DNA of 64,000 bases from Moniliella sp. 'wahieum' (Eukaryota > Basidiomycota > Moniliellomycetes > Moniliellales > Moniliellaceae), in assembly GCA_003971905.1 (NCBI GenBank), contig RSEE01000040.1, forward strand, positions 372,001-436,000, given 5' to 3'. A program made the translations under genes and the position numbers. Positions within the stretch are counted from its first letter, which is position 1, and each line of letters begins with the position of its first letter. The notes under the pieces are model-generated. The model saw nothing but the letters and a program-made list of their open reading frames with translations. It did no database searches and had not been told where the DNA came from. Shown here piece by piece: positions 9,272-64,000 of this stretch.

Positions 9272-10428
9272 CACGGGGTATGGGGGAGAGAGGAGAATGC
9301 AGTGATGGGCATGTCGAATGTCGCCATGGTGAAAAGACAGGGGAATTGTGAGGTGGTGAGAACGGCAGGAAACGTTGCAAGGTTCAGGTGTGTTATTAAG
9401 GGCAGATGCCAAGAGAATAGATCAGATCAAAGGCTGGGAAGAGCGACCTGAAAGGGACCGGCCACGGTGGAAAGGCGCGAAGAAAAAAGACTGGGAAAGG
9501 GAGCAGGCACAGCTGTTGGTAATGCTAACGCCACCCAGCGCCTCGTATCGCAAAGTACTGAGAGTACTGGCTGCGTATACTGAGTCTCTTCAGCGCTGAC
9601 GTCAATATGGACAGCAGCGGTTCGGGCAAAGTGATGGTTGGGGACTGGAAATCGAGGGCGACGACGGGGGCGATGCGAGGCGGGGAAGAGGAAGTGGCGG
9701 CAGGGGGGCACGATGGACAGGGAAGGCGACGACAGGCTTTAGAAGGGAAAAAAGACCAAGGACGCCTTATAATAGCGTCTTTTCTTTGATCTGGGGGCAG
9801 AAGCCCACTACCCGACTTGCGTTGCCGGGACAAGAAGAGGCGCTGAGCCTGAGCGCTGAGCAGTTGAGAGCACTCAGGCGCTCAGGAGGAAGGAGACTGG
9901 TGAGCGCTGAGCCTCACCGCACAAGATAGGATGCGAGAGGCAGGCAGTACGCCAGGGCACACTCGCGAACGGCGGTGAAAGTGGATACGCTGGGTACTAG
10001 CGCACTAGCACAGCCAAGGGGCCAGAGTGATCGAGAAATGAGCAGGTATGCATGGCATGAGACGGGTGACGCGGTGACTCGTGGCGGGGAGTGCGAGAAC
10101 AAATAAGATGACCGATGTCGATGATTAAGATTAAATTTAAAGATTGATGATCGATCGGGATCATCGAGTAGGGTCCAAGAGTGCTGAGTACGTGCTGAGT
10201 ACACTCAGAACTCAGACATCAGACCTACGTATTAATGAGGCCTAGATAGCATCGGGGAAGAGAAGAGGCCAAGGGCAGTGCCACACGGGGGGGTGGCAGT
10301 GCGCCTTCCAGCTTCCCGGTCTGCCTATACTCTCGAGTACAATATACGTGAAAGGAAGACGTGACGTGTGGCGTCACGCGTCACAGGTGACATGGACGCC
10401 TGAGGTTGAGACGCTGAGGGCGTGCGCT

Positions 10429-10470
10429 TGACGCGTGACGCGTGACGAGTGAGGCTTCAGGCCTCAGGGC
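10429..10470. repeat. TSA-N4 heptad run with changing cores
   Basis: Six consecutive 7-bp units in perfect phase. Each starts TGA or TCA, with cores CGCG, CGCG, CGAG, GGCT, GGCC, GGGC. The first four use TGA, the last two TCA. Three cores are exact palindromes, the others are one change away. Confidence 0.9.
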
Positions 10471-10482
10471 CTTGTGCGTCGA

Positions 10483-10506
10483 TGATCGATGATCGATGAT
10501 ATATGA
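10483..10506. repeat. TSA-N4 heptad run (TCGA, TCGA, TATA)
   Basis: Three consecutive TGA units with cores TCGA, TCGA, TATA, followed in phase by a further TGA. All three cores are self-complementary. Confidence 0.9.
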
Positions 10507-10630
10507 CAGTGTCGATTCGATATGTATGAAGTACCAGGCACTAGGGGTAGGATGCTTGGCGCTCGGCGCTCGGCGCTCGATGTCGACGTTAATGCTGTGG
10601 CGCCGTTTGAAATTTCCTTAATTTAACCTG

Positions 10631-10760
10631 TGACATGTGACCGGTGATCGAAGCGATCGAGTGACCAGTGATCTGAAGCTTCAAGCGACTAGTGACAACG
10701 TGACAACGTGACATGTGTGTGCATGTGACATGTGACATGCAGTTGTGATCATGTGTGACC
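10631..10760. repeat. TSA-N4 heptad cluster
   Basis: Starts with three phased units, TGA + CATG, CCGG, TCGA (10631-10651). Looser copies follow: TGACCAG, TGATCTG, a GAAGCTTC palindrome, ACTAGTGA, two 8-bp TGACAACG units and repeated TGACATG. Confidence 0.8.
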
Positions 10761-11271
10761 GGCTGTCTGTAAGCTGCTGCGACCAATCGCGGTGACCGGT
10801 GGCCGGTCCCCTACTATAGCTCCATTTCTCTCGGCCGTACGGCCCATCGACGATAGTCGATAGACGCCAAACGTCACATCATCGATCATCTCTCGTAGAA
10901 GCAAGAAGCAGGTCAACGTTGAACGTGTTGAACGTTATTGAGTGTGAGTTCATCACTGTCACCGACGAAATGCATTTGGACGTTGGAATAGTAGCTGGCA
11001 TTGAAATGAACTGGAGTTGGCAAAGCTTGGATTCTCGGTACTCGGCTCCTTTCCAACTCAGGTGACCCTCACCGGTGGCCCCGGTGTCCAACGTTTACTA
11101 TTCAATGTTCGAAGTTCGATTATCGATGATGGATTGATATGATCGATGATCACGATCACAGGAAATCTGCACAGGATCCGGGGGGGGTGGCTTGACCTAG
11201 TTCCTCGCCATGCACTATACCAGACCATGCATACGTATTCCCTTTGTCACCATGTCGCATATCCCCTGCGC

Positions 11272-11303
11272 TGAGGCTCAGCGGTCAGCGCTTGACGCTC
11301 GGC
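11272..11303. repeat. TSA-N4 heptad run (GC-rich cores)
   Basis: TGAGGC, TCAGCGG, TCAGCGC, then TTGACGC and TCGGCGG: mixed TGA/TCA/TCG spacers with GC-rich cores. Confidence 0.7.
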
Positions 11304-11988
11304 GGCCTATTGGCGTCACAGACTAGTCTCCTGTTTGATGTCACGCATGACACCCTATCCATGAGCGTTTCCATGTTCCAGCGCCCAGCATTCCATGCCT
11401 GCTGCTGCTACACGAAGGCACCACCGCTGCAAAACTGATCTAGATCCACACGGGCAAATAGCGTCTACGTACCCTCGGCCTGATCCCAGATCTCAGAGAG
11501 CTTATGCACTTATGCTGCTAAGCTCCAAGCCACAAACGCACAGCCATGGCGTCTGTCATAATGTCGGTGGTACTCCTCAGTACTTCTGTCTGAGTAACTC
11601 AGTTTTAAACGCACGTTAAATTTTAAACGTTAAATGTGTTAAACGTGCACGGCAACTCGTATACTCCGTCACGCGTATGAGTGACGCCTGAGGCTCAGGC
11701 CCAGAGCCCCTCAGTCCGTCCATCCAAATCCGCCAAGAAGAGCAATCCCATTCCCGCCTAGTCCCGCCGCCCGCTGTAGATGTGGGACCGCCCAGGAGAA
11801 GGGTATGGTCGATGGCCCGAGCCCCCCAGACATTTCTCTGGAAAATCCGTGCCACAAATTTGGTGTAATAAGATCTAAATAATATCGGGCAGACGTTTCA
11901 TCAATCATCATTCTCCTCTCTCAGATCAAAGGGTCTTCATCAGCTCCATCTCAATAACGTTCTCGACTGTCACTGTGACATGTAACAG

Positions 11989-12016
11989 TCACTAGTCACT
12001 AATCATTAATCACTAG
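11989..12016. repeat. TSA-N4 heptad run (CTAG, CTAA, TTAA, CTAG)
   Basis: Four phased TCA units. The last three (21 bp, 11996-12016) recur exactly at 62833-62853. Confidence 0.9.
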
Positions 12017-12179
12017 AATCACTACTAGCCACATGTGACCGTGACTCCGCCTTTCTCGATGTGCAAGGATGCGGGGTGCGAGTAAGGGCGTTGGACATTA
12101 TTGGATGTATTGGATGCGTGTGGGCCTGGCTTCAAGCTTCGTATTTTCGACATACTGTGAGGGATGCATAATATATCCA

Positions 12180-14266: not shown

Positions 14267-17200
14267 TTAGGACATGCCCATCGGTATCCGGCCCATCCGG
14301 GGCGCAAAGCCTGGCGGCATCATTTCCGACCCTTGTCCCGGCAGGGGGAAATCCGATCCCGGTCCGACATTTGAGGGCGCGCCACGGTACATCACCTGCG
14401 CTTGGGCAGGGCTCAAACCTTGCATTCCCCCAACCCTCGATGGAATTCCGGGAGGAGGTTGCCGGGCCATCCCGAGCATGCTAGGATCGTAGTAAGGCCC
14501 CTCGCCTGCATTTCCGCCGTACCCATAGGGTCCCTTTTGCGGCTGCGAAGAGGCGGCGGCCGAATCTGGGCAAGGAGTTGGTTGCCGCCTTGGGCTTGAG
14601 CTTGGGCTTGAGCCGCCTGGGCCTGGGCCTGAGCCTGAGCTTGAGCCTGAGCCTGAGCCTGGGCCTGAGCCTGGGCCTGTGCTTGAGCTTGGGCCTGTGC
14701 TTGAGCCTGAGCCTGGGCTTGGGCATGCGCCTGGGCCGCCCCTACAGACGGGGATTGGCCCAGCATCGCAGCTCTGGCCTGAACCTGCTGAGCTTGCTGC
14801 ACTGCCTGGGCCTCGGCCCAGGCTTGCTGTTGAGCCGTTTGTGGGGCACCCTCAAACCAAGATGTGTTTTTGGCCGCTTGCTGCTGGTTTTGCCAGCGGT
14901 ACATCTGCTGGAGGTATTGGGCATTGGCACTCACCTGCTGCGGCGAGCTGGTCTCGTCGCCCCGACGGGGATACAGCCCACTCATCACGCGCGATGTGGC
15001 CGGGTCCAGAGCCAAGCCGGACGCATCTCCATCATCCTTGCCCATAAGGCGGGACCGGCGTTCGGCCTCTTTGGGCTCCAGCTTGCCGAAGGTGAGCGAA
15101 GCGTAGGGGTCAAATCGTCCTCGGTAAGAGAATGCGACGAACCCATCGGGCCGCTCTCGACCAACAATGAAGATGGCGCTTGGTCCAAGACTGTAGGGCC
15201 CACGTGCAGTGTCCCGTTCAGCGCACTCAAAGACCCAAACCCAGTAATTGTGCCAATCCCCAGTGCCGCCAAACCAATCGCATGCCAGGACGAGGAGACT
15301 GCAATATTGGTGAGGTCATCTTTGATAGCCAACGTTTCTTGCTTCTGTTGCTCGTCCAGCGAGAACGTCAAGTCATGGTTCACACGACGAAATATGAAGC
15401 CAATGCCTCCACTGTCTCATCCACATCCACATCCAGGGGCATCCGGCCTGTACGGACCTCAGCTTGGTGAGAGGCGTGGTACGGGTCGCAGCAGGCTCCG
15501 AACCATGCTCCTCCGGGACGGGGGCAGCGGGCTCACCGGAGGGCAAGGCAAGACCAGGAGGTTGGGCTGCTACAAAGCTTGGTTTGGGCGAATTCTTAAC
15601 CTTGACCACATCAGCCAGCGACGGTTTAGCTGGGGACGCGGCTGCCTTCTTTCTTGAGGTTGGGGCTGGCAAGGACTTGAGTCTTGCTGGGCGTATCCTT
15701 AGCAGCATCCTTCTTGGCCACACGCTGCTTCTTCGGCTGTTGGGCCGTTGCCTGAGATGCCTGAGAGTGAGCCAAGGCAGCCGAAAGAGGAGGGAGTTCC
15801 TCCTGACGCAAGCCCCCGGGGGTAGTCACGCCATTGACGGCAGGACGAACGGGAAGCCCGCCCCCGAACCCCAAGAGGCCGTTTTGGGTAACGCTGTTCC
15901 ACCACTCTCTCCATCGTGAAGATGAGTGTGGGGGTTCAGGGTGCAGGCGGGTGGGGGGAGTGGGGACGGAGATGACTTTGAGCATGATGCGCGGCTTGTA
16001 GGATGGCGGCAGGAGTGGGGGGGGCAGGTAAATGCGCTTGGGGGAGGCGCCGGAGGACGATCAATGGGTGCGCCCAGGAGGTGAGAAGCTCTTGTTTGGA
16101 TTGGTTGACCACTGTCCGGACCTTGTCCGTATCTGACGCAGGAGGGCGGAGATGGTGCAAGTCTTCCTTAGTAAACGTGTCCATCTCGTCCGCCGGTTCG
16201 TGCAGCAAGGTGCAGTCCATCTTCTGGCACGGCAGGCACGCAGATAGTTGGTGCAGTACTTTTTCGTCCCATAGCTTGCATGGATCGTTCTACCGTCTGC
16301 ACTCTTGGTCCCATCAATCGAGACAATCGCCCGGGCAGCATCTTCGCGCCGCTGGTAGGTCACATAGACACCGATTGATGTGTCCTGTGTGCCCATCACG
16401 AGCTTGCTCTTGGACTGGCGCCGACTGATCTCAATATGACTGATGCGCCCATATTGCCCAAAGTAGTCGTGAGACTTAAGGGTCGGGATCAGATCCTCGG
16501 TTGCCAGTTTGGAGCTCAAGCCCGTCACGTACACAAGGTTGCGCTGCACGATACGGGAGTTGGCGAGCCGGGTGCGGTTCATCAGCTCCAGTCCTCTCTC
16601 CCTCTCGCGTTGTTTCTTGACCTGACTCAGATGCTTGATCTCCTCATTGCTCATCGGGTGAACTCGACCTGATCCTCGCTGTACTTGCGCGGCACGAGGA
16701 CAGACCATTGAAGTTCTGCATAATGTTGTGCCAACAAAGCGGCAGATCTAGTAGTGCAGAGGTTTTCAAGGGTCAGTTTTACTGGCATGGTTGGGAGAGT
16801 GAGGAAGGGGTACATACGCGGTAGCGCATGGGCAAGGCTTGAAGTTGGAATCCGTAATGTCATCTCCTCCAGACAAAGGGACACTCCATCTTCTCATCTT
16901 CATCTGACCACACGGCATCCTGAAGGCGGATCCTCAGAGCCTGGGAAAGGTCGATCTGCGACGGCGGCGGCGGCAGCCCGTTGTGGGATGCAAGGGCGTC
17001 ATGGACATGGCTATGCTCCTTGCCGCTGCGGCTGCCCAAGACTCGAAGGAGGGCAGTCGCCCAGCGATTGACGGCGGGCGGGTGTCGGCACTTCTGCGGG
17101 CACGGGCCGGGTCGGAAAAGCTAATGCGGCACTCAGACCGAGGGGCGGAAGGCGACCATGGTGGGATTGAGCGCCGGCGGGATGGCGGGCGACTCTGAAC

Positions 17201-31290: not shown

Positions 31291-32432
31291 TAGAAAAAGT
31301 GGTAGGGGGGATGGAGGTGGGGACAGAAGAAGAGAAAAAGAACAAAAACCGGTTGTGGCGAAAGGGGCAGGAGAAGATAATTCCAAGAAGAGACGGCGGC
31401 TGGTTCGGTGGCTATATATTGGTGATACGCTCAACGCTTCGTATACAGAGGGTAATAATAGCATCTGCTCCCGGCGGATCGACTGATACTCGGTTATGAT
31501 CGCCACCCGTCCCCACACTGACGTCCTGCCTGAGGCCTCCCTGGCCTGGCTTTGAGTGATAAGGCGATTATATACGCTGTGGTGATAATACTCGATCCTC
31601 GACCCTCTGTGAGAAGCACCGCGCGACTCTGACTCACACTCGGCAAGTACTGCCCCTCCGTGGGGATAAGAGTGTCTCCCTGGAAACACTGGCCTGGTGC
31701 AGGACAAAGTAGTATAGGTATAGTCTCCTCTGTGCGCAGTACACTACTCGTGCCATGGACCCAACAGTGTCCGACAGCCTTCAGTCTCGAGATGCCAGCC
31801 TCTTCTGTCTCTGTGAGAACGTTGAACGTTGAACGTTGAACGTGCTACTATACACTACATCTTCCTCTGGTGTACTCCCACCAGTATAGACGCAGTTTAC
31901 CGCTGTGCCCCACTGATCCTACCTCAGAGCTACGACACATGCCATCCTACGTCTGAGCGAGCTACCTCAGACTCTGCATTTGCTCGCCTGCTCTCACACA
32001 CAACACAATAACTTCATCCTCAAAACGATCGAATTCCACCAAAGGAAAGTGTCGGTACTTAGTAGGCGACCGACAAACGAATCGAGTGGCCAGATCAGGA
32101 TATTTCGCGGGATGTAGGAGGGATACGTGAAGGTACGATAAACACCATCCCCGCGACGAGGCCTGGCAAACGGAACCAAAGGCGCAAAAGGCGCAAGAGG
32201 AGGTGTACAGTCAAATCTGAGAGGGAAATGAGAGGATGGCGGATACACATATAACGACTATGATGAACACAGTGGTACATGGAAGAACTAGGCCGACGGG
32301 GGGAAAGGGATGAGGGAACAAGGGGATACAGTTTAAAAACAAAGAGAGGGGATGTAATGTACACAAAAGCACGAGGAGAGACAGAGAAGAACGTTCCTAG
32401 GTATATATGCGGAGGGCAGGAAGGGAGGGATC
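31291..32432. other. Intergenic region between glutamine synthetase and ferric reductase
   Basis: Promoter side of glutamine synthetase and 3' side of the reductase. Contains one clean heptad run at 31823-31843. Other open frames have no motifs. Confidence 0.5.
31823..31843. repeat. TSA-N4 heptad run (ACGT x3)
   Basis: Three identical phased TGA units with core ACGT, about 530 bp upstream of the glutamine synthetase start. Confidence 0.9.
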
Positions 32433-37530: not shown

Positions 37531-37555
37531 GCTCAGAGCTCACCGTGAGCGACGG

Positions 37556-37583
37556 TCACTAGTCACTAGTCACCGGTCACCGG
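37556..37583. repeat. TSA-N4 heptad run (CTAG, CTAG, CCGG, CCGG)
   Basis: Four phased TCA units with perfectly palindromic cores; the core switches from CTAG to CCGG halfway. Confidence 0.92.
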
Positions 37584-37919
37584 GCTCACCAATTGCAAAG
37601 TGCGAGCAGAGCGTCTAAAAAAGGTGACCACACCAACATTGGCTTTTCCAAAGCAAAAGTGCCTTCAGTCACTATTAGTAACTAGTAAGGGCCGCGAGGC
37701 CAAGAATAGCGAGCTCGGAATACGCGGCCTCAGATCCCCTGCCCCCATACCCGACATCCAGAGCTAAAAAGACAGTAGCCAATGGAAATGGTGTGGTCGA
37801 TGGAAGAGGGAGGGGCATCGTGGCAGGAAGCTAATGGAGTACCGTGGTAATTGATAATCGGAGGCATTTCTGGACGAAGCTCGGGGGGGGTGGGGCGGCG
37901 AAGCAATCGAATTTACATG

Positions 37920-38530
37920 AACAGGCCTGAGCCTCAGGAGCCCAACCCACCGTGCGTCAGCAGTTCCTCAGCAGTGCCTCAGCCGACCTCAGCGCCTCAG
38001 CAGGCCTCAGCGTGGATGACGAGATGACGTGGAAGGCGCTGGAGCTTGAAGCCCTGTGGCGCTCAAGCTCTGCAGCCGAAAAGCCTCATTTCCGGTGTGG
38101 GGACCCGCGGGGCGCGCATGCACGGAGGCCGCGGAGGTGTGCGACCGGTGACCGGGGACGGTGACCGCGCTGGCGGCGCCGCAAAGCGGCCAGGGCAACA
38201 TGTGTCCCTGGTCCGCGGAGTGCGGAGTGGATAGAGTGGGATCGCGGCCCTATTGGGTTTGCTCAACGTCCAGCGTTTCCAGTCAGCTGGAAAAAAGGAT
38301 CCCGCTGAAATGAAAGTGTTGCGCTTGCAGCCCAAGGCCACGGCCTAAAGCTTAAAGCCAAGAATGGCAAACGTTAAACGTTAAACGCGGCATGTGGCAT
38401 GCAACCCGAGTCGTGACTAGTGTTGAGTCACTAGTGACTAGAGTGACTAGTGCCTGCCTCGCATGAGTACCATCACATGCATCACATGCACCAGTACTCA
38501 GCCAGTACTCAGGGTGGGAATCTAGTGAGC
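37920..38530. repeat. TSA-N4 heptad-rich segment
   Basis: TCAGCNN-type units at 37930-38010, TTAAACG units at about 38370, and four TGACTAG/TCACTAG units with short spacers at about 38410-38450, then TCACATG and CAGTACT words to 38510. Confidence 0.7.
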
Positions 38531-42867: not shown

Positions 42868-43472
42868 CTTCTTTTCCTCACTATTTCCCCGGGCTGTGCC
42901 TTCTCACATATTGTTCCAGACGGTTGCAGATCCGCAGAAGTTGTCTCTAACCCTCTACTCTTCCCGAGTCGCTTGTCGGGTTGAAATCACTAGCCATGGT
43001 GCATGTGACATGTGACTAGGCACGGTGGCTTAATACGGTGGCTGCTGGTTTGAGTCACAGGAAGTCAGAATCACATGTCGCATATCACAGCCCCTTTTCC
43101 TGCCCTGGATGCTCCCTGAAGCGCTGACGCGTGACGCGTGACGGACCCTCTGTATAGATCTGACGCGGGACGTAACCACTTAACGCCGAACGGGCAGCAC
43201 GTGACCATTTTTGCTGTGAGCATGTTAGATGCGTCGCCGAAAGCAGCGAAACGGAGCCTGACGCGGCCACGTGGGCGCAGCGGGAAAAAAAAGGCGCAAG
43301 CGGAAGTAGCGCGATACGACGCGACGCGACGCGGCTCGGTGACAGGTGTGCGCTCATCATGCATCATGCACCATGCATCATCCGCAAAGCTGCGTGGCGG
43401 GCTCTTCTCGCCCCCCACTTCTCCCATCGCCCTACTCCACCTCCACCTTTACCCCCCTAGTCCTACCCAAGC
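42868..43472. other. Region between the tRNA-like locus and RPA3
   Basis: No gene. Contains CATGTGACATGTGAC words at about 43000-43015, a TGACGCG pair at about 43126-43141 and the heptad run at 43357-43384, ending about 90 bp upstream of the RPA3 start. Confidence 0.5.
43357..43384. repeat. TSA-N4 heptad run (TGCA)
   Basis: Two TCATGCA units, one CCATGCA unit and a degenerate TCA unit, all in 7-bp phase. Confidence 0.85.
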
Positions 43473-43933: not shown

Positions 43934-44343
43934 GCCCGAGCCTGAGCTTCCCCAATCTCGGGAGGGGGAGCCTAGCGCAGTAAGCCCCTCAGCCCTCAGC
44001 GAGCAACGCGCCTTCCTCTCTCATGTTACATGTTACCGAGACCGGGGCTTCGTACCTTACTGCATACCACACACTCGCATACACGGTTGTACATATGTAG
44101 CAACAGGCCGGGTGCCCCATGCCCCCTCTCCTTTGCCTTGCGGGGAGGGCATACTGCCTTCGTTCAATGGGCCTCGGCAGCCTCAGGCTGTGCCAGCCTT
44201 CAAGCTGTCAGTAGGGCGGGGGCGTTGCTAGTCACTAGCCACTAGTCGTTGTTGGGATGAATGGTTGCCGTGGTAGCCGTCCCATTGCCACGTTGGGCGG
44301 CGCCGGCCATGTGCATGGCAGGGCGAATCTAGTACTGTCACAA
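43934..44343. other. Region between RPA3 and the copia element
   Basis: No gene seen. ACTAGTCACTAGCC words near 44230-44245 resemble degenerate heptads. Confidence 0.4.
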
Positions 44344-44502
44344 TGTCGGCCTCGCTACTACCACAGAATGTGAGCACTGAACGTCGTATTGACTAGAAGC
44401 TTCTGCGACTGACTCGTCCAGAAGACTGGTTGCGAGCTCGGAAGGAATGAAAGCTGACTCACGTGACTCAGGGTCCGCGCGGTCCTAGGACGGATGTCAA
44501 CA
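44344..44502 (-). repeat. 3' LTR of the copia element
   Basis: 159 bp, beginning TGTCGGCCTCGC and ending GATGTCAACA on the + strand. It matches 49247-49406 along its whole length. The pol reading frame runs into this LTR before it stops. Confidence 0.93.
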
Positions 44503-47500
44503 CCCCGCTGACCGGAGGGCCCAGTCATGTGGACTGGATCCATCTCCTCGACGCGGAGTTGAGCAAGATGGCTTGTCAGGGCGGGACGGCCGAGAGGCTT
44601 GGTGAGGACGTCCGCTGGGTTCCTTTCGCCGGGGATGTGTACAAGTATGGCCTCGCCCGAGTCCACGTGTTGCCGTACATTGTGGTACCGGATCTTCAGC
44701 TCTCGGAGCTTGCCGGTGCTGCCAAATTTGTGGGCGAGATCGACGACAGACTTATTGTCGCAATACCAATGAATGGGTGTACCCTCGCCGATGGCCCCAA
44801 GCTCGATCATGATGTTCTTGACATAGTTGGCGTCAACCAGTCCATCATATCCTGCCGTATATTCGGCGGCGGCGGTACTGGTAACGCTCTTCGGCTGAAG
44901 AATGGATCGCCACGACACCGGCACACCGTACACCATCAGTAGGCATCCAGATGTGGAGCGTGCCTGGATGGGATCTCCCGCCAAGTCGGAATCTGTATAC
45001 AGCGCAATGGCCGGTGCATCTGATGTTGGGGTCAACCTCAGGCCCTTTCCTCGAGTATGGTACAGGTAGCGAAGGAAGTCATCGACTGCTTGATGATGCT
45101 GCTGCGATGGGTCGGCAGCGGCTCTGCTGAGGGCCGTGATAGCGAAGAGGGAGTCAGGCCGGCCCATTCGTGCAGCCCACAGTCCCGATCCGATCTTCCC
45201 CTGATATGCCTTGCGCAAGGCTGGGAGGGATGGGGGTTCAGGGTCGGCACGGGGCGGTATCATCCGTACGGGATGTGGGAGAGTCCGGATCCACGGGGCT
45301 TTGATGTGGTGCTTTGCCACCACTTCCTCGATGAACTTTGGTTGGCTCAGGTACAGCTCCCCACCGATCCGATCGTATTGGCATCCCAGGTGGTAGTGAA
45401 GGGGACCGTTACCACGAACATCAATGTGTGTGTTTATCTCGGCCATAAACTCCTCGTACTTTTGGTGTGACTTGCATGCGAGGAGCAGATCGTCGGTGTG
45501 GACCGCCAGGAGGATCTGCTCACCCGGTGGTGCAGCGCGCACGAACAAGCAGGGCTCGGTCAAGCTTTGCGTGAAGCCGAGCTTGTCACGCAGCAGGTTC
45601 CGGATGTATCGTGCCCAGTTTGCTCCGCTCTGATGTAGCCCGTATAGACTCTTCTTGAGACGCCACACGCGACCACCCGCTTCGGGGAAGTAGGGGGGTG
45701 GGCGGATGTAGACTGCTTCTTCGAGGGGGGCGTTCAGGTACGCTGCATTGACGTCCGCCGAGAAGAGGCCAAACTTATACTTCTCGGCCAGCACGACGAG
45801 GGTCAGGATGGCAGGTGTGCGCACCGATGGTGCGAACGTCTGGCCCCAAGTCTCGGCCGATTGTTGGTGTCCGCCCGCGACAAAGCGCGCGCGGTGGCGC
45901 AGGAACCGGCCCTCGGCGTCCGTCTTTGTGGTGATGCGCCATAGTCCTATGAGGATTTGTGCACCCGGTGGTGGGTACGTAGCCTCGTAGGTGCCGTATC
46001 GCGCGAGTGTGGCCACCTCGTCGGCCATAGCCTGCTTGACCATGGCAAAGGAGGGGTGAGTCTCGAGACCCTTGAGCGTCTTGGGAGCGAGGGGTACGCC
46101 ATCCTTGGTGAGCTGAACCGTGTCCGGGTGGATGGGTGCGCTGAGAGCAGTCATGGCGGCGTATTCGGGAGGTTGAACTGTGTCGGCAAACGGGGGGGCG
46201 GATGTGTCAGGTAGGGGGCGGGCGATGCCGATCTCTGGTGCGGCGCAGTGGGGCGTGGCGGCTGCAGCACGAGCATGGTAGGTCGTGTCGGTGGGGTCGT
46301 CAGCGATTGGGAGTGTGTGCAGGTCGAGGGAGGTGGGGTGGTGCGCTGGCGGAGGGGGGGGGTAGCGGCGCGGAGGGGGGGTGGTGGTGGGAGCGGGTGT
46401 CTGGGGTGTGGCGGCGGTTCGGGGCATGGGTGCTGCCGCGGCTGGCGGAGTAGGGTTAGCGTCTTTTTCACTGTCGATTTTAATTTGAGGTGATTTGGAG
46501 ATGTCGGGTGGGAAGTGGTCGGGGTGGAGATGGGGGTAGATGGCGTTGCCCCATTTGTACGGTTTCGACCAGCGGTAGGTGAAGGTACCCAGGGATGGTT
46601 GGTATGTGGCGAAGAGCCATCCCTTTGATCCGCGCTGATGGTGGTATCCTACCAGCATACCTTCCTCTGCCCGCGCGCTGAGCTTGTGCTCGCGGCGTGA
46701 CTCGGGCAGATGGAGGTATGCAACGCGGCCAAAGGGTTGCATCGGTAACGAGTATGCGTGGCCTTTGTATCGCTCAAATCGCGATTTGTTGTCTTCCCCG
46801 GATGTTTTGAGTGGCATTTGGTTTTGGGTGAAGCACGCAGCGTGGAGGCTGTGTTCCCACCAGTCCGACGTCGGAAGACCTGTACCCAAGAGCAACTGCC
46901 TTGCACGAGTCGTTATGGTTCGGATGGCACGCTCAGCCACACCGTTGCTAGCACTCTGCCCCGGGATTGTCCGTTCTGACGTGATGCCTTGCTCGTCCAG
47001 AAAAGGTTGCAGTGCGCTTGTCAATTCGGGGGCGTTGTCCGTGCGCAAAGTCCGCAGCAGTCTGTCCGGGCCGTAGCGTTGCTCCCGCAATATGAGGTTC
47101 CGCAGTTCCTTCGTTGCAGCGCCCTTTGTCGGGATCGCTGTGGTGAAGACGTACCGCGTGAAGTCATCAACGGCGACGAGGGCGTATCCGTGCCCCATGC
47201 CGGTTACCCGGGGGAGGTCTACTACGTCGACGTGGAGGACCTCGAAAGGTCTTTTGGATCGGAGGCGGTCCCGGCTCGGATGGGGCGATGCTGTCGCTAG
47301 TGCCACCGCGCATGTTGGGCAATCCCACTCTGAACGACAGAGGGAGATATGCTTGGCTGTGACGCGGAGGCCTGCGGTTTCCGATCGTGTAAGCCAGGGG
47401 AGGAGGTCGATGGCTGCGTGGTTCCAGCGTTTGTGGGCTTTAGAGACGTGGTCCAGGGCCAGGGATGCTGCGAGGGAGTTTGGGGTTGAGGGTGGGTCGG

Positions 47501-47927
47501 CCGGTTTGATCGGTTTGGTCGCCATGGCCCGCAGGGGTGTGGGTGGCGTTCGCGGGTTGTGTAAGATCGTGAATTGATAGTCACTGCCGGTTACTTTTCG
47601 TAGGGTGGATCCTGGGTTACCAAGCCAGATACCCTTCTGGTGTGGGGCGAAGTATGATGCGATTCCGGTGTTCGACAGGTGTGCTACACTGACGAGATTT
47701 CGGCTGAAACGGGGCATGTATAGGCTGTTGGGGAGTTTTATCTCCATTTGGTGTCCTCCTAAGCATCGGATACGGATTGTGGCCGTGCCTCGTCCTTCCG
47801 CCTTTACATGTGTCCCGTTAGCAACCTCTATCTCGTCGTCGCAAGGGGTCATGGATGTGAAGACGGATTTGTCTTTCCAAATGGATGGGAATGCCCCACT
47901 GTCATATAATGCCCGGATGATTCGCAT
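44358..47927 (-). CDS. Copia Pol polyprotein (integrase, reverse transcriptase, RNase H)
   Basis: A single open frame. In order: a protease-like start (LYDSGAFPSIW), a GAG-pre-integrase segment (HKRWNHAAIDL ... CPTC), the integrase core (LHVDVVDLPRV, VDDFTRYVFT, LRTDNAPELT), a Pro-rich linker, reverse transcriptase (LIGLWRITTKTDAEG, SVRTPAILTLVVLAEKYKFG, VHTDDLLLACKS with the active-site Asp pair) and RNase H (YTDSDLAGDPIQ, STAAAEYTAGYDG, WYCDNKSVVDLAHK, HIPGERNPADVLTKPL). Integrase upstream of reverse transcriptase marks the copia lineage. Confidence 0.93.
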   Translation of the reverse strand: MRIIRALYDSGAFPSIWKDKSVFTSMTPCDDEIEVANGTHVKAEGRGTATIRIRCLGGHQMEIKLPNSLYMPRFSRNLVSVAHLSNTGIASYFAPHQKGIWLGNPGSTLRKVTGSDYQFTILHNPRTPPTPLRAMATKPIKPADPPSTPNSLAASLALDHVSKAHKRWNHAAIDLLPWLTRSETAGLRVTAKHISLCRSEWDCPTCAVALATASPHPSRDRLRSKRPFEVLHVDVVDLPRVTGMGHGYALVAVDDFTRYVFTTAIPTKGAATKELRNLILREQRYGPDRLLRTLRTDNAPELTSALQPFLDEQGITSERTIPGQSASNGVAERAIRTITTRARQLLLGTGLPTSDWWEHSLHAACFTQNQMPLKTSGEDNKSRFERYKGHAYSLPMQPFGRVAYLHLPESRREHKLSARAEEGMLVGYHHQRGSKGWLFATYQPSLGTFTYRWSKPYKWGNAIYPHLHPDHFPPDISKSPQIKIDSEKDANPTPPAAAAPMPRTAATPQTPAPTTTPPPRRYPPPPPAHHPTSLDLHTLPIADDPTDTTYHARAAAATPHCAAPEIGIARPLPDTSAPPFADTVQPPEYAAMTALSAPIHPDTVQLTKDGVPLAPKTLKGLETHPSFAMVKQAMADEVATLARYGTYEATYPPPGAQILIGLWRITTKTDAEGRFLRHRARFVAGGHQQSAETWGQTFAPSVRTPAILTLVVLAEKYKFGLFSADVNAAYLNAPLEEAVYIRPPPYFPEAGGRVWRLKKSLYGLHQSGANWARYIRNLLRDKLGFTQSLTEPCLFVRAAPPGEQILLAVHTDDLLLACKSHQKYEEFMAEINTHIDVRGNGPLHYHLGCQYDRIGGELYLSQPKFIEEVVAKHHIKAPWIRTLPHPVRMIPPRADPEPPSLPALRKAYQGKIGSGLWAARMGRPDSLFAITALSRAAADPSQQHHQAVDDFLRYLYHTRGKGLRLTPTSDAPAIALYTDSDLAGDPIQARSTSGCLLMVYGVPVSWRSILQPKSVTSTAAAEYTAGYDGLVDANYVKNIMIELGAIGEGTPIHWYCDNKSVVDLAHKFGSTGKLRELKIRYHNVRQHVDSGEAILVHIPGERNPADVLTKPLGRPALTSHLAQLRVEEMDPVHMTGPSGQRGVDIRPRTARTLSHVSQLSFLPSSQPVFWTSQSQKLLVNTTFSAHILW

Positions 47928-47942
47928 TTCGCCCCCGAGTTC

Positions 47943-49192: not shown

Positions 49193-49246
49193 GGTTGTGG
49201 GTGTAGTTTTGGCCAGCTCAGGGATGAGCAGATAAGGATGTAACTC

Positions 49247-49406
49247 TGTCGGCCTCGCTACTACCACAGAATGTGAGCACTGAACGTCGTATTGGACTAA
49301 GAAGCTTCTGCGACTGACTCGTCCAGAAGACTGGTGCGAGCTCGGAAGGAATGAAAGCTGACTCACGTGACTCAGGGTCCGCGCGGTCCTAGGACGGATG
49401 TCAACA
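49247..49406 (-). repeat. 5' LTR of the copia element
   Basis: 160 bp, nearly identical to 44344-44502. Read in element orientation it begins TGTTGACATCC and ends GGCCGACA. Confidence 0.93.
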
Positions 49407-49686
49407 CCAACGTTCACACTGCCGAGCCAGCCGTTCAGGTTCATGTTCAACTCACCAGCGGGATTCGAAGAGGTGAAGTAATTGCGAGAGCGCGATGTCA
49501 CATGTCACCGTTGAACGTGTACGCGGTACGTTCAGTTGTTCAACGTTCAACGTTCACGGTCCTCACGATCGTCCGAATACCGGAAATCAATCGAACATCG
49601 GACTGATCCCGTTACCACTGAACGCTGAAGGGGAACGGGCTTAGCGGGAGAGACTGGCAGTCACCAGTGTTGGGGAGTGTTGAGCT

Positions 49687-49707
49687 TGAAGCTTGAAGCT
49701 TGAAGCT
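49687..49707. repeat. TSA-N4 heptad run (AGCT x3)
   Basis: Three phased TGA units with core AGCT. Confidence 0.9.
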
Positions 49708-49928
49708 TAGGCAAACTAAGCGTGCACAGTATCGCGCGACCCCCACACCCCGAAACCATCACATAACGCCACGCTTCGTCCTCCTCCTCCTTCTCTTCCC
49801 GGTTGCACTCAAGATGGGCGAGCGTCAAGCCTGAGGGGCTTACAAAAAACGATCTCTGATTGTTCCCTTCTCGTACACCTGCAGAGGACCTTTTGTTAAC
49901 CCATTGGAAGCTCGTAGCTCTCCCGGCG

Positions 49929-49949
49929 TTAAACGTTAAACGTTAAACG
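49929..49949. repeat. Heptad run with TTA spacer (AACG frame, ACGT core)
   Basis: Three TTAAACG units; read as TAA + ACGT the core is palindromic and the spacer is A instead of G/C. Confidence 0.85.
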
Positions 49950-50342
49950 TGTTAAACCCGAAGCGACAGCCACATTTCGAGTGCTCTCTCCGGTGACCGG
50001 TGACCCACTCCTCGTCCCGCGTCCTCAGGCCTCACCCACCGATGGCTCCGCACGGACCCTTGTGCTCTACCACTGCCCTGCGCCATTCTTGCAACTATTA
50101 GGTCCTACGCTACTAGTGAACCGCCTCGATAGAGGCAGCCTTGCTGAGAGGCTGAGAGGCCAAACTCCGCCACTGTGGTGTGTCACGTGACAGGTTACAC
50201 CATTCGCTTTGCAGCGGCACAAGTCTCAGATGGGGGCGGGTGGTTGCCATTTCCTTGGCATCTTCTGTCAGCGTCCAACATTCAACGCCTAACCTTTCTT
50301 CCCACCACCATCGGCTTGCATCTCATCCACCCTTCGCCTGTC

Positions 50343-53143: not shown

Positions 53144-55426
53144 CAGATGTCTTTTAACCTCCCCACCGCCACATGGGGGTTTTATTCGGTTGCTGTATTT
53201 GATTTAGTACCTGGGCGCAGTCAGGCCGTTGGCACTGCTGACGCTGACACACTGCCGGTCTGTTATCCGCAGGCCGGTAAGGTTTGCGCGTGCGCGGTTC
53301 CTTGTTCCCGCTGCTCTATAGGGCCGTCGGGGGGATAGGGGGGGATAAGATCTAAAACTGGTATAGACTGGTACAGACTGGTACAGAGCGAGGCCCCAAA
53401 TATCGGCGCTACCATGATGCCGACCGCTCTCCAACGCGGCATCGCTCTTCATCCGTCTCTCATCGCGCCATCGATCATTGCAGCTCCTCTTCTGCCGTGC
53501 AACTGCTGCTCAGGCAACCGCAATTGATGGCCGCGGGACGCGGGCAGGGGCACGTAGGGGCGTTTAATTGGGCAACCGAATCAAAAGGGGAGCCGAGAGT
53601 GGGGAGTGGCAGGCTGGTAAAAAGGCAGCACGGGGCGATAGTGGCGGTGTGGGTTCGGGGGGACCGGAGGTGTAGGCACTGGTTGCAGCATCTCCGACCG
53701 CGCCGGGGTTGAGACGGTTGCCCGGGACGCGGCGTAGGCGCATAACGCAGACTATGTAGCAGCAAGTATCTGGTGTGCTCTCTGGTCTGAATCACCTGGC
53801 CATGTGCATCTCGTTTACCAACGACATCGCCCAAATTTCAAATGTGGATCCCGCTCTGTGGCCCGCCGATCCGTGGGCAGGTCTCTCCAACCGGTAACCA
53901 CTGTGCGTTTTGGACCTAATCTCTCGACCCCATTGTCGCTCCCGCACTGACCTATAGGGTCAAATATGATCGATCATCGCTCATGTTCTATATCATCGTC
54001 CACATGCACCACAGCCGCCTACATCATGTTGGATGACTCGCATCAGTGAGGTGGCGAAATATCGCGGAGGCATAGAGACTCGGGAGAGGGAACACGAAAC
54101 ATATGCGCCACGGCTGCTGATGTTCTATCGTCACATCACTACATCACCACACAGTTGTCATCTTCTGCCGAAATATGTCTGCGGAGCTACATGTCGCGAA
54201 CGCGTTTCTGTTATCACGTTTATCTTCCCCACCTACATCGACTTGATACGTTACATTACGAGAGCTGATGTAGCTTTTTGATATAGGTTGAAGACGTTGA
54301 AGCTGCTGGAGATCGACCAAAAACAACCGACTGATCGCTATATGTGGCCACCCATACTCTGCCACAGAGAGTGAACAGAAGAGCGTTCTGAACCGTGGGC
54401 AAACCACGGTACTATATAGCCGTCCTAACATGACTCACACACGCAACGCACACAAAGGTGCCGAGTGTTATCACTATTACCTGTGTGGAGTCTTGAAGGC
54501 CTTCGAGGGTGATCCAATTGCATTGATGGTGACGGTTATGGTATAAGCCAACTAGCAACACCTACAGAAGGACATGAATATGCAGCCACACGTAATTGCT
54601 CCCGCCCTCCGGTCTGGCTGCGGAGCAAGGAAGGCACGTACAAAAGCGAGAAAACAGTAGAACTCTCTCCTATAGGTCTGAGGCCTGAGGAGGGACTGAA
54701 GAACCCTTCTAGACAAACGCTCGAGCAACCCGTGGCTCAAGAGGTTCAACATCTGATAGCATGATGGTATACGGCCAGATGCGATTCCACAGATTGCTGG
54801 ATACCTCACAGTGTGTTTCTTCTCTTCGAAAAAAGGGTGTATATATATAGGGAGCATGCATTTTTTGATCCTCGCGACAATACACCGAGCCATCTCTGGC
54901 ACGACTACTACTGAATGAGCCAGGCGAGCGTAGCTTCATCCTGTCTATGTCCAAGATTCATAGAGCCCCTGGCCTTGCTACGCTCTTGGAAAGGCGGTGA
55001 GCTCCAGGTTGGGATCGTAGCAGCCAATCGGCGTGGGCTGGGACCACCGCCGCTGGGCGACGCATCACGTGATGCCTGCGGATGATTCAACGTTCAACGT
55101 TGGAACCAGAAAGCCAGCCAGCACGGGTCACGTGCGCATGGCCCCGGTCAATATCCCTCGAGTCAATGCCCTGCACTCCGGCCGTGTAGTGCTGCGGCAG
55201 AATTATCGCGATGTCCGCACTGCACAAGTGTGTACGCTAAATATTTTGAAGGCCAACCCTACTCTTGTCTTCCCCGCTGCGGTGGTGTCCGCTGTCCTCG
55301 CTCTGGACGCCCTGCTAACCGCAAGACCATCAAGGCTCGATTGGTGAGTAAGAGCACTACAAGCAGGCCCTGCCGACGTGGCCGACGCTAACTTTGCTTC
55401 CCCCCATCTCCCTTCCAAAGAACGCA
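53144..55426. other. Intergenic region holding a dispersed repeat
   Basis: No gene supported. A GGTACAGACTGGTACAGA tandem at 53360-53385, then unremarkable sequence. 54480-54740 is a repeat shared with 60.0-60.2 kb. 55085-55100 has an AACGTTCAACGTT word. Confidence 0.5.
54480..54740. repeat. Dispersed repeat family, copy 2
   Basis: Shares with 60010-60240, in the same order, GAGGGTGAT.CAATTGCATTG, a CAACRC block, GCGAGAAAAC, GGAACTC/AGAACTC, CCTGAGGAGGGACTGAAG and GTGGCTC. Likely LTR or LTR-derived sequence of an old element. Confidence 0.65.
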
Positions 55427-60905: not shown

Positions 60906-61639
60906 TGGAGAGGGCATATCACCGATACTCTGGCTGCGGGTGGCTGGGAACGTGGCACGGGGCAGCTGATGTAAATAGTGCAGGCCAATCCAGCCGATCT
61001 TATCACATTGAGATGGAGGATGGGCGGCTGTCACGGTCGGAGCTGAGCGGGGGAGACCGGAGTTGAGACATAGCTCAAGGAATGTAGCAATTGTTCGTGG
61101 GGAGAAGCAAGACAGAGGACATGAGGCGAAGCGGAAGAACATGGTGCAAAGCGGAGGAACATGGTGGAAGCGGAAAACAGGAAAGAGCGAGATGCTCATC
61201 AGGACGAAGAAATTGGAAATGGGAGCGAGATCAGCCAAACCATGATGCAGACAGTGACATTCCTTTCCACATAAACGTCGTCTTGTTTGATGACCTGCTT
61301 AATCCCTCCCACTCCACAACTCAACTTGCGCCACAAGGGCTACCACCCCCGTGGGACACCTTCCATCTTCATTAATTAATCTCTCGTTACGCGTTGCGGA
61401 CGCTGCTCGCCCAGTGTACTCAGTATACTCTCAGTGTTGAGACGAGGAGGCTCTCAGCGCAGTTGTTCGTTTGCTGCCTATTTGCGTTGGCGCGGTGAAT
61501 GGCGTCGCCACCACAGGAAAGGCTAGAGTGTGTTCATCGCGAAGATTTGGGGATGGAGACGCTGTGTCGTGTGTGCATATGGCCTGTGAGATGGATGAGG
61601 ATGCTTACATGTTACAGCTTAATGGCTGATCGGTGATCC

Positions 61640-61720
61640 AATGATGGGGTGATCACCGGTCACTAGTCAGTGGTCACTAGCTAGTCACTAGTCACATAGT
61701 CACTAGTCACTAGTCACTGT
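61640..61720. repeat. TSA-N4 heptad cluster (CTAG-rich)
   Basis: At least seven TCACTAG units with short offsets; 61700-61713 are in strict 7-bp phase. One CCGG and one ATCA variant occur at the left end. Confidence 0.9.
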
Positions 61721-61994
61721 GCTCCGCTGCCGAATGGTGATAGATTGGGATGGGTGGGGCAGTGCGCGGGCATGCTGGGGGCGCTGGGGCGAGCTGGGGA
61801 TTGCGGGGCGCATTCAATCTTCACTAGCTTCGCTAGCTTCACTGGGCCTCGGACCCTCGGCCTCATAACCCGACCCTCTGTGGCCCCGGCGGGCGCCGCC
61901 GGTCCGCACCCTGTCCCACGTGCGCTCGAGGTTTATTTTTTGTTGGGCTCTCGGCACCCGCTGCACGGGCACTGCCTGGCACTACCAGTCCTAG

Positions 61995-62022
61995 TCATGC
62001 ATCATACATCATACATCATGCA
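61995..62022. repeat. TSA-N4 heptad run (TGCA, TACA, TACA, TGCA)
   Basis: Four phased TCA units; the two inner cores differ from TGCA by one base. Confidence 0.9.
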
Positions 62023-62785
62023 TCCTGGCCTGCCATACCCAGTGGCTCTAAGAGCCGCGGCGCCCCAGTACCAACATACTCGTTGCCTCAGCACGTCAGC
62101 ACACTCAGCAGCGCCGCCAGAGCCTGAGCACACGGATCAACCTGATCGCGCTGATGCGTGACCGATCATCTGTGAGGCTCCTGCGCCAGCACCGAGAGCT
62201 GCCCCGAGCCGCAGCAAACGGGGCGTTGGTGAATGGACAGCGCGGATAACGCGTTTAAACAAGGCTGGGATGTGTCATCGATCTCGGCGTCCTTGGTCGC
62301 TACCTCCAGTGCATCATAGCTTCAGCCCCTCAGCGCTCAGCCTCCTCAACACTTCAAGGCAAAGCACCAGCCCCGTTGGACGTTGGGTGGGGCGGCGGCG
62401 GCCACACATTCATTCGCCCAGGCACGCACTAATCCATTTGAGGTTCCAGATCACTGATCACATCACCGATTCCCACCGACTCGGGATCCAAAATCCACTG
62501 GCCGCCTGACCGCGCATCGGTCACAAGCACTAGCCACTAGGTCATTAGCTTCACTTGACATATCACAATCACTCGTCACTAGATACTATCATATATCAAC
62601 AGTCCCTAGTCCTTGGAGAATCGAGAATCGATAACCAGGAAATATTATTCTTTGGTTGCTGCTTTCAAATTGTACTAGCTTCACCCGCCCCACCGGTCGG
62701 GTCACCGTCGTCATCCTCGCATGCATGACAGCGTGGAAGGGGTGGGTGATCAGTGACTGGTGATTGTAAAAACACACAGGTGCGA

Positions 62786-62853
62786 GACAGTGTCGGACTC
62801 AGTACTCACTCACTAGGTACTCGACTCAGTACTCACTAATCATTAATCACTAG
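62786..62853. repeat. TSA-N4 heptad cluster (GTAC, CTAA, TTAA, CTAG)
   Basis: Two CAGTACTCACT segments; the second leads into four phased TCA units at 62826-62853, of which the last three equal 11996-12016. Confidence 0.9.
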
Positions 62854-62934
62854 GCCTTACTCGTCACTTGGAGATCCAAACAGGCTGCGCCCCCTCGGTC
62901 TTTCGGACGACGGATAGAAGTTGCTCCCCACTTC

Positions 62935-63240
62935 TTGTCTGAGGCTTGAGCAGCAGCTTGAGGCCTGAGGGCCTGAGGCCTTAGCCTAAGGCCCAAGGCC
63001 TGATTTGGCCACAATAGAGTGTGGGCACTGCGTGGGCCACCATCGGGTAGTGGCGGGCAAGTAGTGGCCTAGTGGCCGGTGACCACCTCTCTCAGATCAA
63101 TATCATCGTCATCAATCATCGCGGCCACGGGAAATGACGAACTCAAAGCTTATTAAGCCTTTAAGGTTTTAAGCTTTAAGCATTAAGCTTCTAGAGCGTC
63201 GAGGTTGAGCTCCAACGTGCAGCGTCAGCCCCTCAGCGCC
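62935..63240. repeat. Heptad-like cluster (GGCC, AGCT cores)
   Basis: TGAGGCC-type units at 62940-63005, TTAAGCT/TTAAGCA units with TTA spacers at 63150-63192, and CAGCGCC units at 63226-63258. Confidence 0.7.
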
Positions 63241-63833
63241 CAGCGCCCAGCGCCCAGCCAAAATAGTAGCAAGAGACTGCCCACGCCAACAAGCGTGGCT
63301 GCAAAGCGAGAGGGACTGGCAGGCTTCCATGATACATGTGCATGACTAGCATGCTTGTGACATGCGACGTGTGACATGTGCCCGTGGCCGGTTGACAGCG
63401 ACCAGGCCCCAACGGACGTAGAGGGACAGATGGCAGCGGGAATGCGCTGCGTATGATCGATGATGGAGAGCTAGGCAAAAGTGGGCGGTGGAAGGGGTTA
63501 CACATGGAGAGGGCTTCGGGGATGCGATACCCTGCAGGGAGCATGCCAGCTCTGCATTAAGACTACAGCAGGCGCCGTGGGCTACTGTGGGGGGTGGCGG
63601 CTGCAGTTTGCAAAAACACGAACGTCGCGGCGAGGGCAGGGCTACCAGCAACAAGCCACACAGAGAGACAAGAAAGCGGTCGTATACGTACGGGGTGGTT
63701 TTCGCACTGTATGTACCGCAGGTCCCCTGGCATCGTCGTCGTTCTACACGGCGCACACACCCTTCTCGACATACGTATCACTCTTCTCGCACTTATAAGC
63801 ACTTGAGCGCTAAGCCTGGTTGCGGTTGCCGTC

Positions 63834-63880
63834 GAACGTTGAACGTTAAACGTTAAACACGCTGAACGTTGAGTACGTTG
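63834..63880. repeat. TSA/TAA heptad run (ACGT)
   Basis: GAACGTT then AAACGTT units in 7-bp phase, with the spacer changing from G to A, followed by two looser TGAACGT/TGAGTACGT copies. Confidence 0.85.
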
Positions 63881-64000
63881 AGCGCAGAGCGGCGCTCAGG
63901 AGAACTATCGCAGAGGCCGATTATCGATTAGCGAGAGATCGATTACATTTTCCACGTCCGAAGCCAGAAAAAACAGGGCAGGAAGAAGGGCAGAGGGTCG

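Follow-up and report, generated by a model that had tools for sequence, protein, structure and literature searches.

A period-7 repeat class in the Moniliella sp. 'wahieum' genome as the probable product of motif-directed templated insertion

A 64,000-nucleotide stretch of the genome of the basidiomycete Moniliella sp. 'wahieum' (bases 372001-436000 of contig C40 in an assembly of 69.5 Mb and 223 contigs; hereafter the window) carries a dispersed repeat that keeps a 7-bp phase while its sequence changes. The basic entity of this repeat is a 12-mer of the form xyTNA-y'x'-xyTNA or its reverse complement, where TNA stands for T-N-A, y'x' is the reverse complement of the dinucleotide xy and, on the other flank, w'z' is that of zw. 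In other words, a 5-bp direct repeat encloses two bases that are the reverse complement of the repeat's own outer two. We consider it likely, with a probability of about 0.7, that the repeats have built up through a recurrent, ongoing, motif-directed process of mutation by templated insertion. A preliminary description of the region 9840..12050 had taken the unit to be TGA or TCA followed by a self-complementary tetramer. The 7-bp pattern that it reported is real, but the unit was misread, for it is TNA that is fixed and not the core.

Writing TSA for T-G/C-A, we find 154 TSA-N4-TSA sites in the window against a mean of 60.1 (maximum 82) in 200 third-order Markov shuffles, and sites with a palindromic core number 70 against a mean of 4.0 (maximum 11). 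The excess continues outside the window: a genome sample of 200 kb, drawn from contigs C1-C10 as 20 pieces of 10 kb at round coordinates, holds 294 TSA-N4-TSA sites, 137 of them with a palindromic core (Markov mean 9.6, maximum 24). It is also specific to palindromic tetramers, the 84 non-palindromic sites of the window lying inside the range for other spacings (43-102). Over 264 kb, palindromic hexamers 7 bp apart are of the A....T type in 74 cases, and of the C....G, G....C and T....A types in 3, 3 and 4. Hexamer-palindrome units, which make up 122 of the 1172 possible units, account for 29 of 43 exact period-7 runs of at least 14 bp in the window and 48 of 118 in the sample. Across tandem periods 3-14 an excess of self-complementary units is clear at 7 only, with no clear excess at periods 5 and 9; the sample's other abundant tandem period is 6.

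The 12-mer, scored in both orientations and with overlapping matches, so that long arrays count several times, occurs 81 times in the window (Markov mean 0.25) and 154 times in the sample (0.8). Control 12-mers centred on A-N-T, G-N-C and C-N-G occur 1, 1 and 1 times in the window and 3, 2 and 7 times in the sample. These densities do not bear out the statement that intergenic DNA is filled with the repeats. The 12-mers of the window cluster at 9-12, 31, 37-39, 43, 49 and 61-63 kb, much as had been listed, with a single one in the 25-kb bin, and mapping against coding DNA places them in ORF (open reading frame)-poor sequence (32% of 450 flanks open in some frame, 68% of 2520 random flanks). 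T-N-A is required, the three control centres staying near background, and the inverted arm is 2 nt. The original TGA/TCA anchor holds in the sense that N is mostly G or C (13 per 1000 TNA), and falls short in that A and T also serve at about half the rate (6-8 per 1000). All arm dinucleotides but AT occur, at unequal rates, and 15 of the 16 are found within the window, so that only the T and A of TNA are constant.

We identify the entity as xyTNA-y'x'-xyTNA because classes of anchor pairs, peaks in run length and a motif-free scan agree on it. Among TNA pairs 7 bp apart, those with a palindromic core and one palindromic anchor number 74 and 81 (about 1.5 expected each), and those in which core and both anchors are palindromic number 57 (0.1 expected). 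One palindromic anchor alone is found in 48 and 53 cases against 23 each, and there is no excess of pairs in which both anchors but not the core are palindromic (3 against 1.6). Enrichment is seen for the odd 7-mer xyTNAy'x' itself, jointly over its two flanking bases (1018 against 675 expected, 1.51x; after masking of 7-bp runs, 683 against 577); the other seven centre types stand at 0.90-1.12x. Even palindromes as such reach 0.94-1.12 of expectation, or 0.87-1.01 after masking. We therefore reject the even palindromic hexamer as the primary unit: it is hardly enriched alone, the odd 7-mer is, and pairs with palindromic anchors only are not in excess. Between TNA flanks, a palindromic core of length 4 is enriched 4.13x, and cores of lengths 2, 6 and 8 stand at 1.26x, 1.49x and 0.97x.

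Maximal exact period-7 TNA runs number 46, 73 and 44 at 11, 12 and 13 bp, and 50 of the 73 runs of 12 bp fall in two phases, TNAy'x'xyTNAy'x' (26) and its reverse complement xyTNAy'x'xyTNA (24). The runs rise again at 19 bp (5, 11 and 4 at 18, 19 and 20 bp), and A-n-T, G-n-C and C-n-G runs of the same period peak at neither 12 nor 19 bp. In a scan for direct repeats of length k around an inverted spacer, with no motif assumed, the two strongest well-populated combinations were k=4 with an arm of 3 (337 against 103, 3.27x; A at position 2 in 85%) and k=5 with an arm of 2 (408 against 219, 1.87x; first base T in 66%, third base A in 67%). The two are one entity in two registers. Related forms, in which 1 or 2 extra nucleotides follow the inverted spacer, account for 30 of the 100 and 38 of the 138 TNAzz pairs with the corresponding gap, against an expected 1/16. 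An upstream 2-bp extension alone is carried by 49 of the 147 isolated palindromic units and a downstream one alone by 37, and the two tend to exclude each other.

The most direct view of the process comes from homologous DNA. Region 9840..12050, which holds 18 of the 81 window 12-mers in its 9-11 kb bins together with several polymorphic insertions, has a full-length homologous copy at 88% identity on contig C7 (G000:C7:211675-213834). Because C7 is homologous to the window and collinear with it throughout the stretches fetched, the assembly probably holds two haplotypes. Ten aligned blocks of at least 700 bp cover 34,962 aligned positions with 1745 substitutions and 505 insertion/deletion differences (indels), whose counts drop to 12 at 5 bp, climb to 14, 15 and 19 at 6, 7 and 8 bp, and drop again to 6 at 9 bp. 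The copies differ by 7 bp at sites xyTNAzw, one reading xyTNAzw and the other xyTNA-y'x'-xyTNAzw or xyTNAzw-w'z'-TNAzw. Of the indels of 7, 8, 9 and 10 bp, respectively 8 of 15, 6 of 19, 1 of 6 and 1 of 6 show the TNA grammar in the long allele but not in the short one, so that an inverted spacer complementary to its neighbours was created in 16 of the 46 indels of 7-10 bp; the corresponding A-N-T, G-N-C and C-N-G grammars are found in 0 of the 46. A further 3.1-kb block yields one fitting 7-bp case, read by eye.

Three cases are clean: CCTCA[GGCCTCA]CCC against CCTCACCC at 50023, CTTAA[AGCTTAA]CGCC against CTTAACGCC at 43179, and, read by eye and 104 bases beyond the window end, ACTGA[GTACTGA]GC against ACTGAGC at 64104. 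In the first (50018..50040, minus strand) the 16 bases on each side are identical on both contigs, and in the second (43175..43190) the window holds the empty site, CTTAACG, and the homologous contig the longer form. The spacer dinucleotide, GG and AG in these two, is missing from the empty allele at all three sites; the palindrome was therefore made by the event rather than copied from an adjacent unit. The 8- and 9-bp forms keep the 2-nt inverted arm and mostly have a duplicated block longer by 1-2 bp, as in TTATG-CA-C-TTATG (11495..11520, plus strand) and TCAGC-GC-C-TCAGC (37980..38000, plus strand), both 8-bp insertions. Additions of N nucleotides as in V(D)J joining were considered for these forms and rejected, since in 5 of the 6 fitting 8-bp events (the exception lies at 53458) the extra base is one already present before the T. 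Within the aligned blocks each contig has 19 12-mers that the other matches exactly; a further 8 and 7 face a gap of at least 7, and 51 and 38 face substitutions or other gaps. A 6-bp indel at window 35548 seems to include, in inverted form, bases that lie about 12 bp upstream (CGGT...ACCG), and may record a fold-back event of greater length.

These alignments bear on ordinary replication slippage on short tandem repeats, under which the palindromic look would be a by-product of unstable hairpin-forming units. Arrays of 3-7 units, copy numbers that differ between homologous contigs and decayed units with single substitutions (L011) are all in keeping with slippage. Moreover, 5 of the 16 fitting indels, at 10371, 37555, 38369, 55096 and 39319, can be read as simple tandem duplications inside or next to existing units, which also weighs against templated insertion; they include TGACG-CG-TGACG (10365..10385, minus strand; 7 bp absent from the homologous contig), TAAAC-GT-TAAAC (38365..38392, plus strand; a 7-bp array difference) and TCAAC-GT-TCAAC (55090..55110, plus strand; a 7-bp insertion). 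Slippage does not, however, account for the three empty sites that lack the spacer, for the absence of a clear excess at periods 5 and 9, or for run lengths that peak at 12 and 19 bp (5+7n) rather than only decaying with no preferred fraction. Nor does it account for orientation: genome-wide, with overlapping matches inside one array scored separately, (TGACATG)x3 at up to two mismatches gives 1221 matches and the reversed repeat (TGTACA plus G), of equal hairpin potential, gives 0, and TNA(CTAG-TNA)x3 gives 268 against 1 reversed. Slippage is in our judgement highly unlikely to be the source. Hairpin strength fails to explain the preference as well, since reversal leaves self-complementarity unchanged, and we rejected general hairpin instability on the absence of these reversed arrays and of a clear excess at other odd periods.

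The direction of change could be polarised in a repeated family that covers L007:640-960. Of 710 candidates 40 copies were scored, all 95-100% identical, so that the family has apparently been active recently, and 20 of these 40 were fetched. One copy, L020, carries ACTGA-GT-ACTGA, whose additional 7 bp are lacking in all 21 of the other copies that span the site (the 20 fetched and L007; L015 does not span it), and the gain is derived in L020 for that reason. Self-comparison of the fetched sequences gave 42 pairs with two distinct 7-bp gaps; one, that of L020, fits, and the other sits in a 62%-identity alignment and was left unused. We infer that the long alleles at the other sites are likewise gains.

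Several observations weigh against a reading in which templated insertion at TNA makes the repeats. Direction is polarised in the L020 case only, and 30 of the 46 indels of 7-10 bp fit no such rule. Event rates are not genome averages, because the later pieces of homologous sequence, beyond the first 19 kb around 9840..12050, were aimed at array-rich parts. Two near misses, GATAG-TC-GATAG at 10851 (10840..10868, plus strand; a 7-bp insertion of the same geometry centred on TAG, and uncounted) and one at 37678 (spacer GG where AG is expected), show that the rule admits exceptions or that the sites undergo mutation. A palindromic core without a palindromic anchor is also in excess (61 against 23), and 42 of the 147 isolated palindromic units lack any 2-bp flank extension while 19 have both; some sites are thus not clean 12-mers. 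Finally, exactly 2 inverted nucleotides are unusually strict for free fold-back synthesis: of the variable segment lengths expected of fold-back or template switching, only a core length of 4, that is an arm of 2, is strongly enriched.

Templated insertion at TNA would explain what was most puzzling in the preliminary description, namely that phase and symmetry hold while the core changes. An event at an anchor xyTSAzw may copy either flank, giving y'x'xy on the left or zww'z' on the right, and successive events at one anchor would give xyTSA-y'x'xy-TSA-zww'z'-TSAzw, with two different cores in phase and xy and zw as the outer flanks. Cores can differ with phase and symmetry kept because one anchor can seed both flanks. 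Palindromic cores that differ from each other stand side by side in 15 cases; xy flanks them on the left in 11 of these and zw on the right in 12, with both in 9, where chance is about 1/16 each. Two ordinary arrays abutting in phase would also pass this test, which counts against us, but they would leave the shared phase unexplained. The TCA array at 37550..37585 (plus strand), with cores CTAG, CTAG and CCGG, is one unit longer than on the homologous contig and has flanks that fit such seeding. Two-sided seeding answers the puzzle of the changing cores without selection.

How might such insertions arise? Each gain would duplicate TNA and two bases of one side and place the reverse complement of those bases between the copies, and repeated gains would build in-phase arrays. 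We take the two inverted bases to have been copied through base pairing, because a protein cannot specify arbitrary bases with guaranteed complementarity. The likeliest route would be repair synthesis at an end produced 2 nt from the TSA motif, where a short fold-back, or a hairpin end opened 2 nt off its tip, could add two inverted bases; the end would then be joined to a filled-in partner, leaving a 5-7-bp duplication. The fixed motif and arm length would point to a putative cutter or nicker that recognises sequence, and the strict 2-nt arm and the need for TNA favour an end made at a defined site, for instance by the opening of a hairpin two bases off its tip. Opening of hairpins at this distance is familiar chemistry. 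We also put forward, tentatively, that TSA may be the target of an active sequence-specific enzyme, such as a domesticated transposase or recombinase of the hairpin-forming kind, which would open the DNA at a distance of two bases and write the 7-bp palindromic insertion through a hairpin end. We place much less confidence in any particular enzyme than in templated insertion itself.

Beside copying through fold-back pairing, the preliminary description had offered selection for a symmetric protein site at regular spacing, which would be bound by a dimer. The two interpretations have fared differently: the 7-9-bp differences that carry an inverted copy of the adjacent two bases support copying, and the 15 different arm dinucleotides in the window, among which no half-site is conserved, speak against selection. 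A protein site might explain why the sites are clustered in ORF-poor DNA, why TSA is constant and why 19 of the 12-mers are identical on both contigs. We nevertheless disfavour it because no core base is conserved, only base pairing, and a protein would presumably be unable to demand complementarity of arbitrary bases. Even palindromes, moreover, are hardly enriched, and an insertion is also seen in one copy of a repeated element (L020), so that we regard selection as most improbable.

A related possibility is that the sites are footprints of hairpin-forming DNA transposons (hAT- or RAG-like), which would leave a 5-7-bp target duplication and 2 P nucleotides after excision and build arrays by re-insertion. 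P nucleotides are known from V(D)J joining and from hAT excision, and a duplication, a 2-nt palindromic filler and a second duplication have just this look. At window 36600 (L155) the homologous contig also has about 181 bp of inserted DNA bounded by an 8-bp duplication, AACGAGTG, the arrangement that a hAT-like miniature inverted-repeat transposable element would show. Yet no element with a TNAzz duplication was noticed by eye among the larger printed indels (the genome was not scanned for one), unfilled TNAzzTNAzz duplications (gap 0; 18 cases) are not enriched, the filler fits the zz side only, and a density of about one 12-mer per kb would demand an enormous history of transposition. We think this explanation unlikely.

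A (TGACGCG)n array at 10425..10450 (plus strand) is 14 bp, or two units, longer than on the homologous contig, and a 7-bp insertion, TCATC-GA-TCATC, lies at 10870..10900 (plus strand), where GA is absent from an empty site that also has a substitution. A TCA array at 11989..12012 (plus strand) changes its core from CTAG through the non-palindromic CTAA to TTAA, and a (GAACGTT)n array with core ACGT occupies 31817..31843 (plus strand). Clusters of 12-mers lie at 49400..50050 (14 in the 49-kb bin), together with arrays of TGA.AGCT, TCA.ACGT and TAA.ACGT, and at 61600..63900 (16 in the 61-63 kb bins), again together with arrays. Elsewhere in the window a minisatellite with a (GCCTGA)n-like unit lies inside an ORF (14591-14737). 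A Copia-type element at 44331-49408, with a 1189-aa ORF (44358-47927) and 171-bp repeats of 96.5% identity (44336-44504 and 49239-49408), is missing from C7 and is thus a polymorphic insertion. Pfam matches among ten window ORFs were to armadillo repeats at 19.6-20.7 kb, in an ORF that we take to be Vac8-like, to a Copia-type polyprotein with reverse transcriptase (RVT_2) at 44.4-47.9 kb, and, below the cut-off, to MFS; the armadillo and Copia-type matches are in keeping with a fungal genome. The 5.8S/LSU sequence of L132 may resemble that of Cantharellales. The 5.8S ribosomal RNA gave 14 matches with eight different scores across many contigs, which suggests divergent ribosomal DNA copies or pseudogenes.

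If a hairpin-writing enzyme is indeed at work, it would be a standing mutator. The repeat class is defined by a copying rule, not by sequence, so that many events recorded in one genome give the geometry of the repair or nuclease activity almost base by base. The repeats also suggest that palindromes of arbitrary sequence can accumulate by mutation alone, which offers a null model where intergenic palindromes are read as protein sites. They supply polymorphic, potentially polarisable markers, and the process is testable directly in the living fungus.

Among known systems, the repeat shares its period with bacterial heptanucleotide tandem repeats (PMC4692102). In the bacterial and viral sequences that we searched, the strings exist with either one dominant core or no TNA preference, and we rejected the idea that the same grammar operates there. 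At least 92 bacterial genome stretches contain (TGACTAG)3. In 80 of these loci, which were selected by their CTAG core and had the matches masked, 28 A..T hexamer pairs lie 7 bp apart, 21 of them CTAG and 7 singletons. Viral contigs contain the reversed CTAG string more often (50 stretches) than the CTAG array (9), which argues against a TNA rule there; the AGCT array occurs in 27 stretches and the CATG array in 1. No second organism with the TNA grammar was found among these CTAG-selected bacterial loci or in the viral-contig searches with CTAG, AGCT and CATG strings. Bacterial contigs rich in (TGACTAG)n belong to metagenome-assembled genomes of Omnitrophota (L064, L066, L113) and Gastranaerophilales (L049, L054, L068, L076, L094, L097), the latter also rich in TGAATAG-like heptamers; these arrays are a separate repeat class with one dominant core. 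In cyanobacteria, short tandemly repeated repetitive (STRR) sequences are heptanucleotide repeats. The (A)n-(T)n microsatellites of Fusarium are likewise fungal, palindromic and present or absent between relatives, but they are mononucleotide runs in mitochondrial DNA, and the sections of that work considered here describe no 7-bp phase or TNA (PMC7218506).

Known mutational mechanisms come closer. Hairpin-forming recombinases and transposases leave a duplicated target and a 2-nt palindromic filler, sometimes with further nucleotides, which is the likeness to our sites; here the filler matches one side only, and the larger printed indels, as viewed by eye without a scan of the genome, include no noticed mobile element with such a target duplication. 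In template-switch mutation and inverted-repeat homogenisation, reverse-complement copying between two switches makes perfect inverted repeats (PMC7954356, PMC8604942), and an inverted copy of neighbours between direct copies is formally a four-point template switch, a type for which short templated insertions are described (PMC7954356). An alternative would therefore be the ordinary template switching of replication, as catalogued in primates and yeast, locally biased towards TSA. The inverted segments there are variable, with a median length of 12 (PMC7954356), and the parts of the two studies at hand describe no tie to one trinucleotide or one inserted length; here we see 2 nt, one fixed motif and about one match per kb, and we hold this alternative to be distinctly unlikely. 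The closest experimental parallel is fold-back insertion at breaks in yeast, in which self-priming extends one end of the break and non-homologous end joining attaches the other, leaving very short inverted copies beside the break (PMC11724301). The yeast insertions arise at a double-strand break and need Pol delta and end joining. A 2-bp case is mentioned, but in the portion of that study considered here the insertions are mostly about 5-34 bp, primed on 10-nt inverted microhomology at an induced HO cut, whereas the Moniliella genome has a 2-nt arm, a fixed TNA, a 5-7-bp direct duplication and sites throughout the sampled genome. Top-ranked results of our literature search included no description of this repeat class, and we know of no motif-directed, fixed-length templated insertion reported to create one. 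Short templated insertions are already known; it is the motif-directed, fixed-length form, building a repeat class of its own, that to our knowledge appears to be new.

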